Shown here in pieces: positions 21,395-28,687 of a DNA stretch of 64,000 bases (position 1 is its first letter; every line of letters begins with the position of its first letter). The position numbers were made by a program, and so were the translations under genes. The notes under the pieces are model-generated. The model did not search any database and had not been told where the DNA came from. It worked only from the letters and a program-made list of their open reading frames with translations. Source of the DNA: Pseudobacteriovorax antillogorgiicola (GTDB lineage: Bacteria; Bdellovibrionota_B; Oligoflexia; Oligoflexales; Oligoflexaceae); assembly GCF_900177345.1 (NCBI RefSeq), contig NZ_FWZT01000001.1:310001-374000 (forward strand), read 5' to 3'.

Positions 21395-22960
21395 TTGGAT
21401 ACGGTCATCTCTATAACAGTAGGGCTCTTTTTTGTTATCGTCGGCTTTATGCTTGGCATACTATTTCACCGAAAGAGTCTTAAAAAAACTTTTGACGCGG
21501 CTCAGATGGATTCGGAAAAGATCCTTGAAGAAGCAAATCAAGAACGGGATCGCATCATCAAAGAGGCCCATCAGGAGGCCAAACAAGAAAACCGCCAGCG
21601 ACGAACTCAGTTCGATGCTGAAATTAAGAAACGTCGCACTGAATTCCAGAAACTTGAAAATAAGGTCAAGAATCGCGAGCAATCTGTTGAGAAGAAATTA
21701 AGTGTACTAGAGAAGAAAGAGTCTGACCTAGAAAAAATGACAGGTCATCTCAATCAGCAAGAAGCTCACTATCGAAGCATGATCAAAGAATGCGAACTCA
21801 ACTTGGAAGAGAATCGCAAGACCTTAGAATCCATCGCAAACATGTCTCAGGAAGAAGCCAAAAGGGAGCTTATCAAGTCTCTCGAAGCAGATGCTAAAAA
21901 AGCTGCTCAGGAAAGACTACGCCAAATAGAAGAAGAAACTCGTGTGGAAGCCGACCGGATCGCACAGTCGACCGTCAGCCTCGCGGTACAAAGGGTTTCC
22001 AGTGAATACGTCAATGATTCTACAATTACCGTTGTTGGGCTACCTTCAGACGAGATGAAAGGTCGCATCATTGGTCGTGAGGGTCGTAATATACGCGCCA
22101 TCGAACAGGCTACAGGTGTCGACCTGATCATTGATGACACTCCTGAAGCTGTTATTTTGTCATGCTTTAACCCCATCCATCGAGAAATTGCAAAGATATC
22201 CCTTGAGCGACTCATCGCTGACGGACGAATCCACCCTGCAAGAATCGATGAAACTGTTAAAAAAGTAAGCTCTGAATTTGATCAGGTGATCATCGAAAAC
22301 GGCGAACAAGCGGCATTCGACAGTGGTATTACTGACCTACACCCTGAGTTGGTTAAGCACTTAGGGAAGCTCAAATATCGCACTGCCGGACAGCAGACGG
22401 TGCTTCAACATGTTGTCGAAGTTGCTCACATTTGCGGGATTATGGCCGCTGAAATGGGCATCGATGTCAAAAAAGCGAAACGTGCTGGGCTTTTGCACGA
22501 CATTGGCAAGTCGGTTGATCAGGAAGTAGAAGGGCATCACTCAAAAATCGGCGCTGATTTGTGCTCAAAGTATAACGAATCAGCTGATGTTATCGAGGCC
22601 GTTTTGGGACACCATACTGAAGAATTGAACTTTGCAAGCCCCTTAACCATTGTGGTTCACGCCGCCAATGTGTTATCAGAGAGACGACCTGGCGCCCGCC
22701 GCGAGGTCCTAGAAACCTACATCAAACGCCTCAAAGCGATGGAAGACATCGTCAACGGCTTCGAAGGTATTAGTGAATCATTTGTGATTCAAGCTGGCCG
22801 GGAAATTAGAGCTCTCGTTTCACCGACTGGCATATCAGACTCCGAAGTGATCGACTTATCAAACGATATCGCCTTCAAACTCAGAAAAGAGTTAACTTTC
22901 CCTGGGCAGGTTAAGGTCACAGTCGTAAGAGAGAGCAGACAAGTTGACTTTGCGAAATGA
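21395..22960 (+). CDS. rny: ribonuclease Y
   Basis: RNase Y is a membrane-anchored endoribonuclease starting mRNA decay. The 521-residue chain has an N-terminal membrane helix (VISITVGLFFVIVGFMLGIL). A long charged coiled coil (about 25-200) follows. The KH domain has GRIIGREGRNIRAIEQATGVDLI (about 210-235), and the HD domain has LLHDIGKSVDQEVEGHH and AVLGHHTEE. I chose the TTG at 21395: GGAGG lies 8 nt upstream, the length becomes family-typical, and the membrane helix starts at once. A reading from 21236 would add 53 untypical residues. The stop overlaps ymdB by 4 nt (ATGA). Confidence 0.93.
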   Translation: MDTVISITVGLFFVIVGFMLGILFHRKSLKKTFDAAQMDSEKILEEANQERDRIIKEAHQEAKQENRQRRTQFDAEIKKRRTEFQKLENKVKNREQSVEKKLSVLEKKESDLEKMTGHLNQQEAHYRSMIKECELNLEENRKTLESIANMSQEEAKRELIKSLEADAKKAAQERLRQIEEETRVEADRIAQSTVSLAVQRVSSEYVNDSTITVVGLPSDEMKGRIIGREGRNIRAIEQATGVDLIIDDTPEAVILSCFNPIHREIAKISLERLIADGRIHPARIDETVKKVSSEFDQVIIENGEQAAFDSGITDLHPELVKHLGKLKYRTAGQQTVLQHVVEVAHICGIMAAEMGIDVKKAKRAGLLHDIGKSVDQEVEGHHSKIGADLCSKYNESADVIEAVLGHHTEELNFASPLTIVVHAANVLSERRPGARREVLETYIKRLKAMEDIVNGFEGISESFVIQAGREIRALVSPTGISDSEVIDLSNDIAFKLRKELTFPGQVKVTVVRESRQVDFAK

Positions 22961-23787
22961 TTAAATTGATTGCCATTGGCGATGTGATGGGTAAGGCGGG
23001 CAGGCGTTGCCTCGCTAAAGCCCTACCCAAGATTCAGGAACTCCACGCCCCCGATATATTGATCGTCAACGGCGAGAATGCTGCCGGTGGTTTTGGAATT
23101 ACAAAAAAAATCTATAAACAGCTTATTGAAAGCTTCGGTGTAGACTGCGTTACAACAGGCAATCACTGGCATGACAAGCGCGAGATCTACGAGCTGATCC
23201 CGTCTGCGGAGCGGCTTGTGATCCCCGGCAATATGATGAACGTGGACTCCATTCATCATGGCTATAAGATCCTTGAGACCAAATCGGGCACTCCCTTCGC
23301 AGTGATCAACGTCATAGGTAGTGCCTTCATGCACCCAGATAATCGCAATCCTTTTCACTGTGTCGATGAGATTATGAAGCACATTCCGGAGCAGGTTCGC
23401 ATCCGGGTTGTGGATGTTCATGCGGAAGCCACCAGCGAAAAACAGGGAATGGGTCGCTATCTGGCAGAAAAAGCTTCTCTTGTTTTCGGAACCCATAGCC
23501 ACGTGCCAACAGCCGATGAGCGCATCCTCGACAACTATACGGGCTTTATTACCGATATTGGCATGACAGGCCCATACGACTCCGTGATCGGGATTCGCAA
23601 AGAGGCCGCCATCGCCCGCATGACTGGGGGAGAACGGAAGAAGTTCGAACCAGCCACAAAAGACTTGTGGATGCCTTTTGTTGCCGCAGAGATCGATGAG
23701 CAATCGGGTGCATGCCTAAAGATCGAGCGCTTCCGATGGGAGTTGGAACGCATGGATCTGGAGATAAATGACTCACCTTTAGATTGA
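22957..23787 (+). CDS. ymdB: YmdB-type metallophosphoesterase (2',3'-cyclic nucleotide phosphodiesterase)
   Basis: 276 residues of the YmdB calcineurin-like family (TIGR00282 type). The metal ligands are in IGDVMGKAGRR, NGENAAGG, TTGNHWHDKREI, VDVHAEATSEK and GTHSHVPTADERIL. The family hydrolyses 2',3'-cyclic nucleotides. In Bacillus it is encoded next to rny and affects motility and biofilm choice. Here it overlaps rny by 4 nt, so the linkage is preserved and supports a joint role in RNA turnover. Confidence 0.93.
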   Translation: MIKLIAIGDVMGKAGRRCLAKALPKIQELHAPDILIVNGENAAGGFGITKKIYKQLIESFGVDCVTTGNHWHDKREIYELIPSAERLVIPGNMMNVDSIHHGYKILETKSGTPFAVINVIGSAFMHPDNRNPFHCVDEIMKHIPEQVRIRVVDVHAEATSEKQGMGRYLAEKASLVFGTHSHVPTADERILDNYTGFITDIGMTGPYDSVIGIRKEAAIARMTGGERKKFEPATKDLWMPFVAAEIDEQSGACLKIERFRWELERMDLEINDSPLD

Positions 23788-23946: not shown

Positions 23947-25563
23947 ATGATTTTAAAACGCGCAATCTTTACTTCACTGGCCATGGCCACTATGGCAAGC
24001 AGCCCAGCGCTTGCCGTTTTCATCGACGGACATGGTAGCTATGCGCTTCGCGGAGAAACAAGAACGAAGCCTGGCTTTAATCAAGAAACGGGAGTTTACC
24101 AAGCTGTTGATCAGTTTTTTCAACTTGATACAGAGATCAGAACCTCTGATAAGGCTAGCTTTTTCTTAGAGTTTCGCTTGTTTGACCAGGATCGCGAGTC
24201 TAACTTGGGCGATGATACCCAACTCGATACCTGCCCAACACCCATTGGTGCTGGTGAAGACTACAACTGTGCTGAGCAGTCGGGCTTGCAGCAGGACGCC
24301 ATCGAACCTCGTTACAAAGACCTCCAACCTCGTGTCACTAAGGCATATGCTCAGTACGCCATGGACTACTGTCTCTTGACCGTTGGCCGCCGCGATCGAC
24401 ATTGGGGACTCGGCCTCTACCTTGACGGTGGTAACGATGTCTTCGATACCGATGCCTCGATTTACGATGGTGTAACTTGTGACATCAATCTTCAGAAGAG
24501 CCAGACTCTTGGCTTCTCCGTGGGATACGACAAGATTTCGGAAACCGGTGGTAGTATCTATGCTACTGGCATCGCAGATCAGAACTACGGTCCCAATAAT
24601 CGTAGTGATGATCTCGATCAGATCTTTTTTACGATCGAGTATAACGATCATAAAACCAATGCTGGCAAAGGCTTCTCTCAGCAAGTCGGTATTTACTTCG
24701 CCAACATTTTCGGTGGCGGCAACACTGGCACTGATATCAAAGTCGCTGATCTCTACCTTAACTTCATCATTTCAGACCTCGTCATTCAAAACGAGATTCT
24801 TTTCCGCTTAGGTGAATCTGCAGATCCTAACCTAGCATTGCTAGGAGGTGCTCGTCGCCTGAACGACACTGACGAGTTTAAAAACAACGTGCAATCCATT
24901 GCCGCAGCAGGCTCCATCGAGTACTTCTTATCCCGCTCAGGCTCTGTCCTGGGTCCAGCAAAGTTTAAGCAAGGAACGGCTACCAGCCATTCATTGTTCT
25001 TTGACTACGCTTTTGCACCTGGCGACCCCGATGGCTACTTGCCCGAATACGAAAGCCTTTCTGATCCTGAGAGCGCTCGTGATCGCTCGGTCAAGGCAGT
25101 CGCATTCCACCGCAATTTCAAGCCCGGTTTACTATTGTTCAACGGCACTACTGGAATTGACGACAAGCGAGTTGATGGGATCTTCGACCCTTACCGCGTG
25201 ATGAATGCTAGCGTTTTCTCTCTCGGTTATCGCTACAAAAGCTTGGTAAATGGCAACTTTGAAATCAAGTTCGTCACAGCCTCACTCAATGAGTCTATCT
25301 CAAGCGATGCGAAATCTTTTTATCAGTCAGGGGACGATGAGCTGACACAAGCTGAGAGAGACAACAAGGAGCGACCTATAGGCTTCTACGGCGATAGCTT
25401 GGGCATGGAGCTTGATGTTTCATACTCAAAAAGCCTGGGTGAAGGGCTTGAGCTAGGCGTTGCTGGAGCCATCGCTCAGGGTGGTGATGCTTGGAAAGTT
25501 AAAGACTCACAATCCGCTCAAGATAACTATCTTCTTCAAGGGCACATTTCATTTCAATTCTAG
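23947..25563 (+). CDS. putative outer membrane beta-barrel protein (porin-like)
   Basis: 538 residues with a cleavable signal peptide (AIFTSLAMATMASSPALA). A body of alternating hydrophobic beta-strand-like segments follows, ending in aromatic FQF. The end LLQGHISFQF is a typical BAM recognition tail. Two cysteine pairs (near residues 94 and 105, and near 139 and 178) could form disulphides. Many acidic loops with D/N/G recall calcium-bound extracellular loops. It may be a porin; substrate unknown. AGGAAA precedes the ATG by 11 nt. It stands alone between ymdB and the degenerate lyase gene. Confidence 0.75.
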   Translation: MILKRAIFTSLAMATMASSPALAVFIDGHGSYALRGETRTKPGFNQETGVYQAVDQFFQLDTEIRTSDKASFFLEFRLFDQDRESNLGDDTQLDTCPTPIGAGEDYNCAEQSGLQQDAIEPRYKDLQPRVTKAYAQYAMDYCLLTVGRRDRHWGLGLYLDGGNDVFDTDASIYDGVTCDINLQKSQTLGFSVGYDKISETGGSIYATGIADQNYGPNNRSDDLDQIFFTIEYNDHKTNAGKGFSQQVGIYFANIFGGGNTGTDIKVADLYLNFIISDLVIQNEILFRLGESADPNLALLGGARRLNDTDEFKNNVQSIAAAGSIEYFLSRSGSVLGPAKFKQGTATSHSLFFDYAFAPGDPDGYLPEYESLSDPESARDRSVKAVAFHRNFKPGLLLFNGTTGIDDKRVDGIFDPYRVMNASVFSLGYRYKSLVNGNFEIKFVTASLNESISSDAKSFYQSGDDELTQAERDNKERPIGFYGDSLGMELDVSYSKSLGEGLELGVAGAIAQGGDAWKVKDSQSAQDNYLLQGHISFQF

Positions 25564-25603
25564 CCCAAGGAACATAGCTTCTTTAGACTTACCAGCCGTG
25601 ATA

Positions 25604-25633
25604 GCCTCCTAAATGGGACACCAAACAGGAGGC
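25604..25633 (+). promoter_or_regulatory. hairpin that sequesters the ribosome site of the ArgH-like gene
   Basis: GCCTCCT (25604-25610) pairs perfectly with AGGAGGC (25627-25633) across a 16-nt loop. The right arm contains the full AGGAGG Shine-Dalgarno, 5 nt before the ATG at 25638. Folding would block initiation. It could also act as the end of the preceding transcript. Confidence 0.5.
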
Positions 25634-25637
25634 AATC

Positions 25638-26834
25638 ATGGCAGAATCATTTCATGCTCCCAAAGTTTCATGTTTTCGTGATTACCACACAGCAGTCGCT
25701 GCGAGTCTGCAGGCTGAAAGGCTAATTGACAGTGACACCGCCGACTCACTTAGAGACTTCCTCAGACAGCAACTCTTCCAGTGTGATCCATCTCAGTCAC
25801 TATTTGAACGCTTGATTACTGATGCACCAGGATTTTCCATAGCAGCAAGGTCATACTGTAGTGATCATGCCTTGTTTAGCAACTATTTCAAAGGCCTGCT
25901 CCGCCTTTGGCTACCTCCTGTGATAGAGCAACTCAGAATCTGTGGTGAAGACGTTTTGGATCGATCCCAGCTCATGTTCAACCGCCCCTTTCAGCTGGTT
26001 CGAAATCAGCAGCTCGAAGCACAAAGCCTCTTTAGCGGTGTCCTGCTCCTATTTGCTGAATCCATCATCGAGTGTCGCCAAAGGCTGCAAAAGACCTACA
26101 AGGAATCAACATGTCTTACTTTAAGCCTTGACCAACCATCATTAGACAAGGCCTGGAGCCAAGAGCTGGGGCTGACGGTGGGTGAACCGAGTCACCTGCC
26201 TCTACTGGCCGAAAACCGAATGATTCATGACCTTGCCCACAGCTTTGAGTCCTTATTGGATTGTACAAGGCTGATTTTTGACCAACTAAGGCACAATATT
26301 CAGCCCATCGATTCTCAAAGAGGCCGCCCTATTCCTGTCATGCTCAGCGAGGCCATTTCCATCTGCCACACCCTCCGCACGATGGAGTTCGCTTGGCAAG
26401 ACTCTCTGATTCCATGGGAGCATGTCCTACTGTCTGTTGAAGACTACTGGTGCAAACTGGTCCAGCTAACGACGAACATACTCGCAGATCTCACCTCTGC
26501 AGTTAAGACTAAGTCGATTCAATCTAGCTTTCTACCTCCTCGCTCTATGTTTGATCGTGCCACTACCTGCCTACTAAAGCGTGGGGTGAAGCCAGAGGAA
26601 GCGTCAAAGATTGCTGACGAACTAGCCAAATATTGTCATGTTAACAAAATCGGGATAGAGGATATCACACCCGTCGAAATCGGTAGGATCAGCCCAAAGG
26701 TCTCACCCAGGCTCTTGCATGAGCTTCAAGAAATCGCTAAAGATATGTCAGTCAATCAGCGTAAGGCTTCTGAAAAAGAGCTCATCCTGACCAGGACAAT
26801 GGCATTAACCCAAAATATTCGGCAAGAAATATGA
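25638..26834 (+). CDS. degenerate argininosuccinate lyase-like protein
   Basis: 398 residues, all helical, with no signal peptide. The C-terminal part (about 303-352) follows the ArgH end-domain pattern: SMFDRATTCLLKRGVKPEEASKI, then KYCHVNKIGIEDIT and ISPKVSP. Residues about 190-290 fit the ArgH central helices by spacing. The lyase signature with SS.MP.K.NP is absent (RGRPIPVMLSEA is at that place), and the usual catalytic His and Ser blocks are not recognisable. It is probably not an active lyase. It overlaps an LptM-like lipoprotein gene by 4 nt and is followed by dapA-dapB. This is the place where argH sits in many proteobacteria (argH-lptM-lysA/dap). The assignment is an inference from pattern and context. 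Confidence 0.6.
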   Translation: MAESFHAPKVSCFRDYHTAVAASLQAERLIDSDTADSLRDFLRQQLFQCDPSQSLFERLITDAPGFSIAARSYCSDHALFSNYFKGLLRLWLPPVIEQLRICGEDVLDRSQLMFNRPFQLVRNQQLEAQSLFSGVLLLFAESIIECRQRLQKTYKESTCLTLSLDQPSLDKAWSQELGLTVGEPSHLPLLAENRMIHDLAHSFESLLDCTRLIFDQLRHNIQPIDSQRGRPIPVMLSEAISICHTLRTMEFAWQDSLIPWEHVLLSVEDYWCKLVQLTTNILADLTSAVKTKSIQSSFLPPRSMFDRATTCLLKRGVKPEEASKIADELAKYCHVNKIGIEDITPVEIGRISPKVSPRLLHELQEIAKDMSVNQRKASEKELILTRTMALTQNIRQEI

Positions 26835-27016
26835 AGTGTTCCCTACAAATAACCCTACTGTTAATGCTAGCAAGCTGTGGTGTTAAAACGGCACCCCGTT
26901 CTGATGTGAAGGACCTGCGCCCCAGCATTCCCTATAAAACACCTGCAGAGCCTCCACAGGATGAAGCAAAGAAGCCTCAGAACAGTAAAGAAAAAGGAGT
27001 CAAACGTGAACTTTAG
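26831..27016 (+). CDS. small lipoprotein, LptM (YifL)-like
   Basis: 61 residues. A signal peptide (ITLLLMLASC) ends in lipobox LASC, with Cys about 16 followed by GVKTAP. This resembles the CGLKGPL motif of LptM, which helps LptD mature in the LPS translocon. The rest is charged and proline-rich. It overlaps the ArgH-like gene by 4 nt (ATGA) and dapA by 11 nt. LptM-type genes commonly sit between argH and lysA/dap genes, which supports the call. Confidence 0.7.
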   Translation: MKCSLQITLLLMLASCGVKTAPRSDVKDLRPSIPYKTPAEPPQDEAKKPQNSKEKGVKREL

Positions 27017-27908
27017 TATCAAGGGTGTTCATACCGCAATCGTCACCCCGTTCGACAAGGACGGCAATTTAGACTGGGATTCATTCGAGAAGCTGCTCGA
27101 TCACCAAGCAAAGGGTAAGGTGGATGGGGTCGTGATCAGCGGTACCACAGGGGAGTCTCCAACTCTGACTGTTCAGGAAAAGCTGGCTCTCATACGAAAG
27201 GCCCGGGCCTATCTGCCCGAAAGCATCCAAGTCATGGCCGGGGCAGGCAGTAACAATACTCAAGCATCGGTAGAAATGGCGAAGCTGGCTGTAGATGCGG
27301 GCGCTGACTCTCTTCTTGTTGTAACCCCACCCTACAACAAGCCGAGCCTTAATGGCTTAAAGCTTCACTTCAGTAGCATAGCTACAGCAACCAACCACCC
27401 GATCTGTCTCTATCATGTCCCTGGTCGCACAGGACAGCTTTTGAGCGCAGCAGAACTGGCCGAACTTTGCGCTATTGAGCAAGTGGTCGCTGTAAAGGAA
27501 GCTAGTGCTGATATTTCTTTGTTCAGCCGGGCTGAACGTATTTCCCAAGCCAACTATCTGAGTGGCGATGATTTTACGTTTCTAGGCTCATTGGCAGTAG
27601 AGGGCGATGGCGTCATCAGTGTCGTCACCAATATATACCCGCAAGCCTTTCGAGTGCTCTACGATGCGTTTAAAGCTGGCGACAACCCTAAGGCTGCCAG
27701 AATCCACAAGGCTCTGCTCCCGGCTATCGAAGTTCTCTTCTACGAATCGAATCCTGGCCCAAGCAAAGCCATTCTCGCAAATAAAGGCCTGTGCCAAAAC
27801 TATTTCCGCGCACCAATGGTACCTGTTAGCCAAGAAAGCTATGCCCACATCATGAATGTAGTGGAAGACACTGAGCGGGCATTGAGCGACCTGGGAGTGG
27901 AAGTATGA
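27006..27908 (+). CDS. dapA: 4-hydroxy-tetrahydrodipicolinate synthase
   Basis: DapA condenses pyruvate with aspartate semialdehyde in the lysine/DAP pathway. The 300-residue protein has TAIVTPF, GTTGESPTL, VTPPYNKPS, the Tyr in YHVPGRTG and the Schiff-base lysine in VVAVKEAS (Lys164). The start is a GTG at 27006 with AAGGAG 6 nt upstream; the longer reading from 26961 has no ribosome site. It overlaps the LptM-like gene by 11 nt and dapB by 4 nt. Confidence 0.96.
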   Translation: MNFSIKGVHTAIVTPFDKDGNLDWDSFEKLLDHQAKGKVDGVVISGTTGESPTLTVQEKLALIRKARAYLPESIQVMAGAGSNNTQASVEMAKLAVDAGADSLLVVTPPYNKPSLNGLKLHFSSIATATNHPICLYHVPGRTGQLLSAAELAELCAIEQVVAVKEASADISLFSRAERISQANYLSGDDFTFLGSLAVEGDGVISVVTNIYPQAFRVLYDAFKAGDNPKAARIHKALLPAIEVLFYESNPGPSKAILANKGLCQNYFRAPMVPVSQESYAHIMNVVEDTERALSDLGVEV

Positions 27909-28687
27909 CCAAGGTTTGGCTTCATGGATACCATGGCCGCATGGGCCAAGAAATTTTGCACCTGCTTGAAGAAGATTCTCACTTGAAGTTTTTAGGAGGA
28001 TCAAGCCGTAACCAACTGATTCTTCCTGGAAGAGAGCCGAATGGCTATTCTCCAAACGATCTCGTCGAGTCTTTGGGAGAAACCGACGTGATTATCGATT
28101 TTTCAAATATCGCTGGGAATCAAGCTATTTTTAAGGCTTGCAAAACACATAAACTTGAACCCAAGGCCTTTGTAATTGGCACCACAGGACTAGATAGAGG
28201 CGCTCGCAACGCCTGGAAAGACCTTTGCCGTGAAGCTGGTCATCGTTTGCTGTTTGCGCCCAATACTAGTCTTGGAGTTTTACTCACAATGAAAATGAGC
28301 CAGCAAATGGCTCAAGTTCTAAGTCCCATGGGTTTTGATATTGAGATTATTGAGTCCCACCACCGCAACAAAGTCGATTCACCAAGCGGAACTGCGATGT
28401 TTCTAGCCGACCGAATCTGCGATAAGGTTGACCTTAAAGTGAGTACCCATCGCACGGGGAAACGGGAGGCTAATGAACTCGGGGTATTTGCATTGCGCGG
28501 TGGATCGGTGTTTGGAGAGCACGAAGTCCGCTTTATGGGCGACCATGAAGAGCTAGCAATATCACATCGTGCCTTATCTCGGACCCTTTTCGCAAAAGGG
28601 GCTCTTTTACTAGCAAAATGGATCCAGAAGCAGAAGCCCGGCCAGCACTATGGGCTTCCAGATGTGGACCTTAATGACCTCGCCTAG
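27905..28687 (+). CDS. dapB: 4-hydroxy-tetrahydrodipicolinate reductase
   Basis: DapB reduces the DapA product with NAD(P)H to tetrahydrodipicolinate. The 260-residue chain starts with WLHGYHGRMGQEI (nucleotide loop). It has VIIDFSN, IGTTGLD, APNTSLGV and the catalytic segment ESHHRNKVDSPSGTA, then FGEHEVRF. Start overlaps dapA by 4 nt (ATGA). Its stop overlaps the stop of a convergent gene by 4 nt. Confidence 0.96.
   Translation: MTKVWLHGYHGRMGQEILHLLEEDSHLKFLGGSSRNQLILPGREPNGYSPNDLVESLGETDVIIDFSNIAGNQAIFKACKTHKLEPKAFVIGTTGLDRGARNAWKDLCREAGHRLLFAPNTSLGVLLTMKMSQQMAQVLSPMGFDIEIIESHHRNKVDSPSGTAMFLADRICDKVDLKVSTHRTGKREANELGVFALRGGSVFGEHEVRFMGDHEELAISHRALSRTLFAKGALLLAKWIQKQKPGQHYGLPDVDLNDLA

Follow-up and report, generated by a model that had tools for sequence, protein, structure and literature searches.

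The window, a 64,000-nucleotide stretch of the Pseudobacteriovorax antillogorgiicola genome, carries at 25638..26834 (+) an open frame of 398 amino acids, with an ATG start and AGGAGG just upstream, whose product is very probably a functional but dead ArgH-fold protein, an argininosuccinate lyase (ASL)-like pseudoenzyme that is called pseudo-ArgH hereafter. The next gene, which overlaps it in an ATGA, encodes an LptM-like small lipoprotein of 61 residues (26831..27016, +; LLLMLAS-CGVKTAPRSDVKDLRPSIPY), and is followed by dapA (4-hydroxy-tetrahydrodipicolinate synthase; 27009..27908, +; TIGR00674, 272 bits) and dapB (4-hydroxy-tetrahydrodipicolinate reductase; 27905..28687, +; TIGR00036, 177 bits), both scoring over their cut-offs. 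Upstream of pseudo-ArgH lie a rny-like ORF, a ymdB-like phosphodiesterase gene (22957..23787, +; PF13277, 9e-87), which is a conserved neighbour in an order shared with relatives, and an ORF for an outer-membrane barrel-like protein (23947..25563, +; C-terminus HISFQF), so called from its composition and C-terminal F only. In addition, a hairpin at 25595..25642 (+; MFE of -33.3 for 97 nt, z of -4.8) encloses both the Shine-Dalgarno sequence (AGGAGG) and the ATG of pseudo-ArgH, and this candidate element possibly serves attenuation or translational control of the gene. A separate observation concerns two relatives, G001 and G013, in which terminator-like hairpins that carry T-runs lie directly before the pseudo-ArgH start.

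The likeness of the window protein to ArgH needed a profile to be seen. Used alone, the 398-residue sequence gave no Pfam or NCBIfam match, even at an E-value of 10, and so had no hit to TIGR00838, PF00206 or PF14698, and a PDB search with this single sequence returned no convincing match among solved structures; PF14698 was matched below its cut-off in three relatives. A profile built from 18 relatives (A1) matched the C-termini of delta-crystallin/ASL structures in the PDB at 1.7e-7, in agreement with the ArgH-like C-terminus described in a previous, sequence-only reading of this DNA, and the likeness reaches well beyond that end: alignment of the pseudo-ArgH profile with 13 true ArgHs by hhalign spanned 378 columns (E 8e-15, probability 98%), whereas the control against the unrelated DapA gave E 0.07 and a probability of 0.8%. 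Moreover, the AlphaFold2 model of pseudo-ArgH (pLDDT 87.8, pTM 0.84) had ArgH and delta-crystallin as its top Foldseek matches (E 1.9e-10, TMq 0.58-0.67, 11-16% identity) rather than a fold unrelated to the aspartase/fumarase superfamily; a true ArgH folded from its single sequence reached a pLDDT of 38 and was uninformative. These computations show that pseudo-ArgH is homologous to ArgH along its whole length. With ArgH (TIGR00838; PF00206 plus PF14698) it shares the full-length profile alignment, a mostly helical fold, an ASL_C2-like C-terminal region and the type of locus, but it is approximately 60 residues shorter, is missed by the ArgH models and lacks the three signature blocks of the enzyme.

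These blocks, C1 (RSRND), C2 (THxQxAQ) and C3 (GSxxMxxKxN), were found in none of the 35 pseudo-ArgH members, as against 15, 17 and 18, respectively, of 18 true ArgHs. Loss of the lyase signature and catalytic blocks, already noticed for the window copy, thus extends to the family, and from the absent blocks pseudo-ArgH is predicted to have no lyase activity; the proposal of a catalytically dead ArgH-fold pseudoenzyme is borne out by this absence together with the hhalign, AlphaFold2 and Foldseek results. Aligned with ArgH, pseudo-ArgH has nothing that corresponds to the RSRND loop or to the catalytic serine, and His159 is replaced, while E326 of ArgH corresponds to E261 of pseudo-ArgH, kept in 31/35 members; further conserved residues (E347, K380, G178 and N115) are specific to the family. 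Strong conservation, including the positions of E261, N115 and E347, could also point to a membrane-anchored enzyme that uses the old ArgH fold for a new chemistry, whether in the diaminopimelate (DAP) pathway or elsewhere, and the location of the gene beside dapA-dapB in most genomes would suit such a role. We nevertheless consider a new enzyme unlikely, given the missing catalytic-serine and RSRND loops, the presence of a separate dapA, and the fact that pseudo-ArgH stays when dapA moves. Non-catalytic use of the ArgH fold is known from delta-crystallin I, an avian lens protein that is an ArgH relative without lyase activity, the delta-crystallins being near to ArgH in sequence. Delta-crystallin I is among the top structural matches of pseudo-ArgH, but the latter, a bacterial protein, has only 11-16% identity to solved ArgH/crystallin structures, no longer has the active-site loops and is fused to a lipoprotein. 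No description of bacterial ArgH-type pseudoenzymes, or of an inactive bacterial ArgH, was found in the open-access literature.

A second, intact argH was looked for and found in the window genome (G000:C2:139708-141075, 613 bits), where it adjoins argG, with an argR-like end before argH. Its presence, the fold in common, and the frequent regulation of active cousins by pseudoenzymes (PMC11266112) are what one would expect if pseudo-ArgH were a regulatory or hetero-oligomeric partner of true ArgH that tunes arginine synthesis. However, true ArgH was not detected in several genomes that carry pseudo-ArgH, including every one of the six genomes in genus g10, of which G013 is an assembly of 8 contigs and 97% completeness, and pseudo-ArgH is not sited with arg genes. 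An arginine-only link was rejected because ArgH-less genomes keep pseudo-ArgH, and partnership with ArgH in general appears very unlikely.

With the single window sequence as query, relatives were retrieved from 27 of 56 related genomes, and a survey of the clade for the degenerate form with profile A1 then recovered full-length pseudo-ArgH in 35 of 43 Oligoflexales genomes, a count that takes in G007, in which the profile match is partial but the ORF is whole. The protein is dispensable, since 8/43 members of the order have no full-length copy; G008, G009 and G026 keep the lipoprotein only, and in the remaining order members without pseudo-ArgH the lipoprotein was likewise not found. Where it is present, comparison of close species shows strong purifying selection on the ASL-like domain, with Nei-Gojobori dN/dS values of 0.05 (G020/G024), 0.10 (G027/G030) and 0.08 (G028/G021) in the three least saturated pairs, all of them relatives outside the genus of the window species; constraint is weaker in the transmembrane and tail part, with values of 0.13-0.29 for these pairs. 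These values largely refute the view of the gene as a functionless argH remnant, decaying between useful genes and joined to the lipoprotein by read-through. Such a remnant would account for the identity of only about 20% between families, for the absence of pseudo-ArgH from several small genomes, and for the window copy, which is split and deviates at residues conserved in the family (G28R, R73Y, G75S, F179L and R264L). Against it stand, besides the dN/dS values on which it was rejected, full-length frames in 35 genomes, the conserved family-specific residues and a clean, confident predicted fold, and we regard it as highly improbable for the family as a whole. As to the window species itself, the changes at family-conserved residues suggest that its pseudo-ArgH may be drifting.

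The closest association of pseudo-ArgH is with the lipoprotein. In 33/35 genomes (31 tabulated together, plus G032 and G040, which were inspected singly) the two are encoded in one reading frame, laid out as approximately 400 residues, a hydrophobic stretch, a Cys-Gly lipobox and a short tail, with no stop in between. The Cys-Gly lipobox is present in all 35 genomes, and the tails measure 24-70 residues in the 33 tabulated, most of them with the pattern KT...RP.IPF. A start codon from which a separate signal peptide could be made is absent in several fused members, including G035 and G012. Only the window genome and G015 have the split form, and as fused relatives exist in the family of each (G001-G006 and G022, respectively), both splits are probably secondary; because the window genome is one of these two, the fusion is not visible from the window. 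When two proteins are fused in one set of genomes and encoded by adjacent genes in another, this usually signals a functional link. Between the two window ORFs there is a -1 frame change, and the split there may be a sequencing indel. A programmed frameshift linking them was rejected, since inspection by eye revealed no canonical slippery site at 26815-26834.

The sequence-only reading had also placed the gene in a classic argH position, and this was confirmed from two sides: dapA-dapB do lie downstream, and a true argH, a small lipoprotein gene and lysA are adjacent in two alphaproteobacteria, Azospirillum p1 and Sinorhizobium K101, an order read from plasmid or chromid records. On the strength of that order, the pseudo-ArgH locus looks like an old argH locus that has been repurposed, even though the third partner differs (lysA in the alphaproteobacteria, dapA-dapB here). 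These loci also prompt the question of what holds argH, lptM-like and lysA or dap genes together. Pseudo-ArgH adjoins dapA-dapB in most Oligoflexales loci, which would fit a structural module that joins DapA and DapB in a complex for cell-wall precursors, as had been suggested. Yet the fused gene is kept in G032 and G035 though dapA is elsewhere, its fusion partner is a lipoprotein segment and no Dap enzyme, and the gene order resembles the inherited argH-lipoprotein-lysA loci, which makes a DapA/DapB module quite improbable. A role in cell-wall precursor supply, for which gene order was the sole basis, is accordingly not upheld by these loci, the tightest genetic link being to the lipoprotein. 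The barrel and lipoprotein genes also lie side by side in G008 and G009 though dapA is elsewhere, and ranked by gene order the lipoprotein is the first associate of pseudo-ArgH, the barrel the second and dap the third.

The overlap claimed with an LptM-like gene stands, as an ATGA overlap, but the name is less secure, with a PF13627 score of 14.1 bits for the window lipoprotein against a cut-off of 27.3. E. coli LptM (YifL), which is approximately 6 kDa in size and has no N-terminal cytosolic domain, is a lipoprotein of the LPS translocon (PMC10567701, PMC12644819). It stabilises LptD while this protein is assembled (PMC10567701), and the ten residues directly following its N-terminal cysteine are close to the lateral gate of LptD (PMC12644819). 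The Oligoflexales protein resembles it in being a small lipoprotein with a Cys-Gly lipobox, a short tail and lysine/DAP genes nearby, but differs in its sub-cut-off score, in the predicted cytosolic domain attached to it, and in its lineage, LptM-like genes having been reported to be virtually absent outside Proteobacteria (PMC10567701). We found no paper in the open-access literature describing an LptM-similar lipoprotein beyond Proteobacteria with a dead enzyme attached. As judged from sequence matches to LptF/G and to an LptD_2-type protein, the Lpt pathway exists in the window genome, in which PF04453 (LptD) had no match. The LptD_2 match (G000:C7:185430-185693) is the only LptD-like one there, and among control genomes this model matched only Bacteroides. 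Moreover, the barrel-like protein, which has no Pfam family and eluded assignment, shares 37-57% identity with its relatives in Oligoflexales. In every named locus of this order that was read, it is the neighbour of the lipoprotein segment, staying beside it even where dapA or pseudo-ArgH is missing, and it may be the partner of the lipoprotein.

As the order keeps a dead ArgH under strong selection and nearly always joined to a lipoprotein, pseudo-ArgH has most likely taken on a job in the cell envelope. Taken whole, our best explanation, to which we assign a probability of roughly 0.5, is that a dead ArgH family was repurposed as the cytosolic half of a lipoprotein precursor, most likely starting from an argH copy at an old argH-lipoprotein-lysA/dap locus. 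The fused protein would insert in a type II manner: its hydrophobic stretch would be the signal-anchor, and the ArgH-like domain, which like ArgH is probably an oligomer, would stay in the cytosol. The lipobox cysteine would be the target of Lgt and LspA, and the short tail would travel to the outer membrane as an LptM-like partner of LptD or of the conserved upstream barrel. Before cleavage, the ArgH-like domain, tethered to the membrane, might serve as a scaffold or regulator by holding the lipoprotein or timing its release, and we offer such control of lipoprotein and outer-membrane assembly tentatively. Any cooperation in the window species would have to be in trans, since the two halves come there from separate, overlapping genes. 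Somewhat more doubtful is the further idea of a new precursor architecture, with a pseudoenzyme of 400 residues in the cytosol as N-terminal 'pro-domain', in which a single polypeptide, once processed by Lgt/LspA, would yield both an ArgH-fold regulator, cytosolic or anchored in the membrane, and a lipoprotein of the outer membrane, and would in this way couple envelope assembly to a signal from the cytosol; no precedent for a lipobox, internal or otherwise, behind a cytosolic domain of approximately 400 residues was found in the open-access literature. If true, cytosol and outer membrane would be linked in a new way, by a dead metabolic enzyme that fronts a lipoprotein precursor on the cytosolic side, and the occurrence of fused and split forms inside one order opens the idea to direct test.

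Other ArgH-like proteins were observed in family f12 of the same class. Several f12 genomes carry, between scpA-like and rplM/rpsI-like genes, an ORF of approximately 410 residues with an ArgH-like C-terminal region, detected by hhalign (E 5.6e-6 to ArgH and 5.5e-7 to pseudo-ArgH); ORFs with such a C-terminus lie at L165 6405-7628 (-), L167 2572-3870 (+), L168 5477-6706 (+) and L166 5964-6881 (-), and the approximately 410-residue ORFs are perhaps, going by these alignments, a second degenerate ArgH family. Two f12 genomes, both with a separate true ArgH, have ArgH-like matches within open frames of 902 amino acids (G051:C24:145484-146578 and G044:C3:518170-519267), which possibly encode an ArgH fused to another domain.
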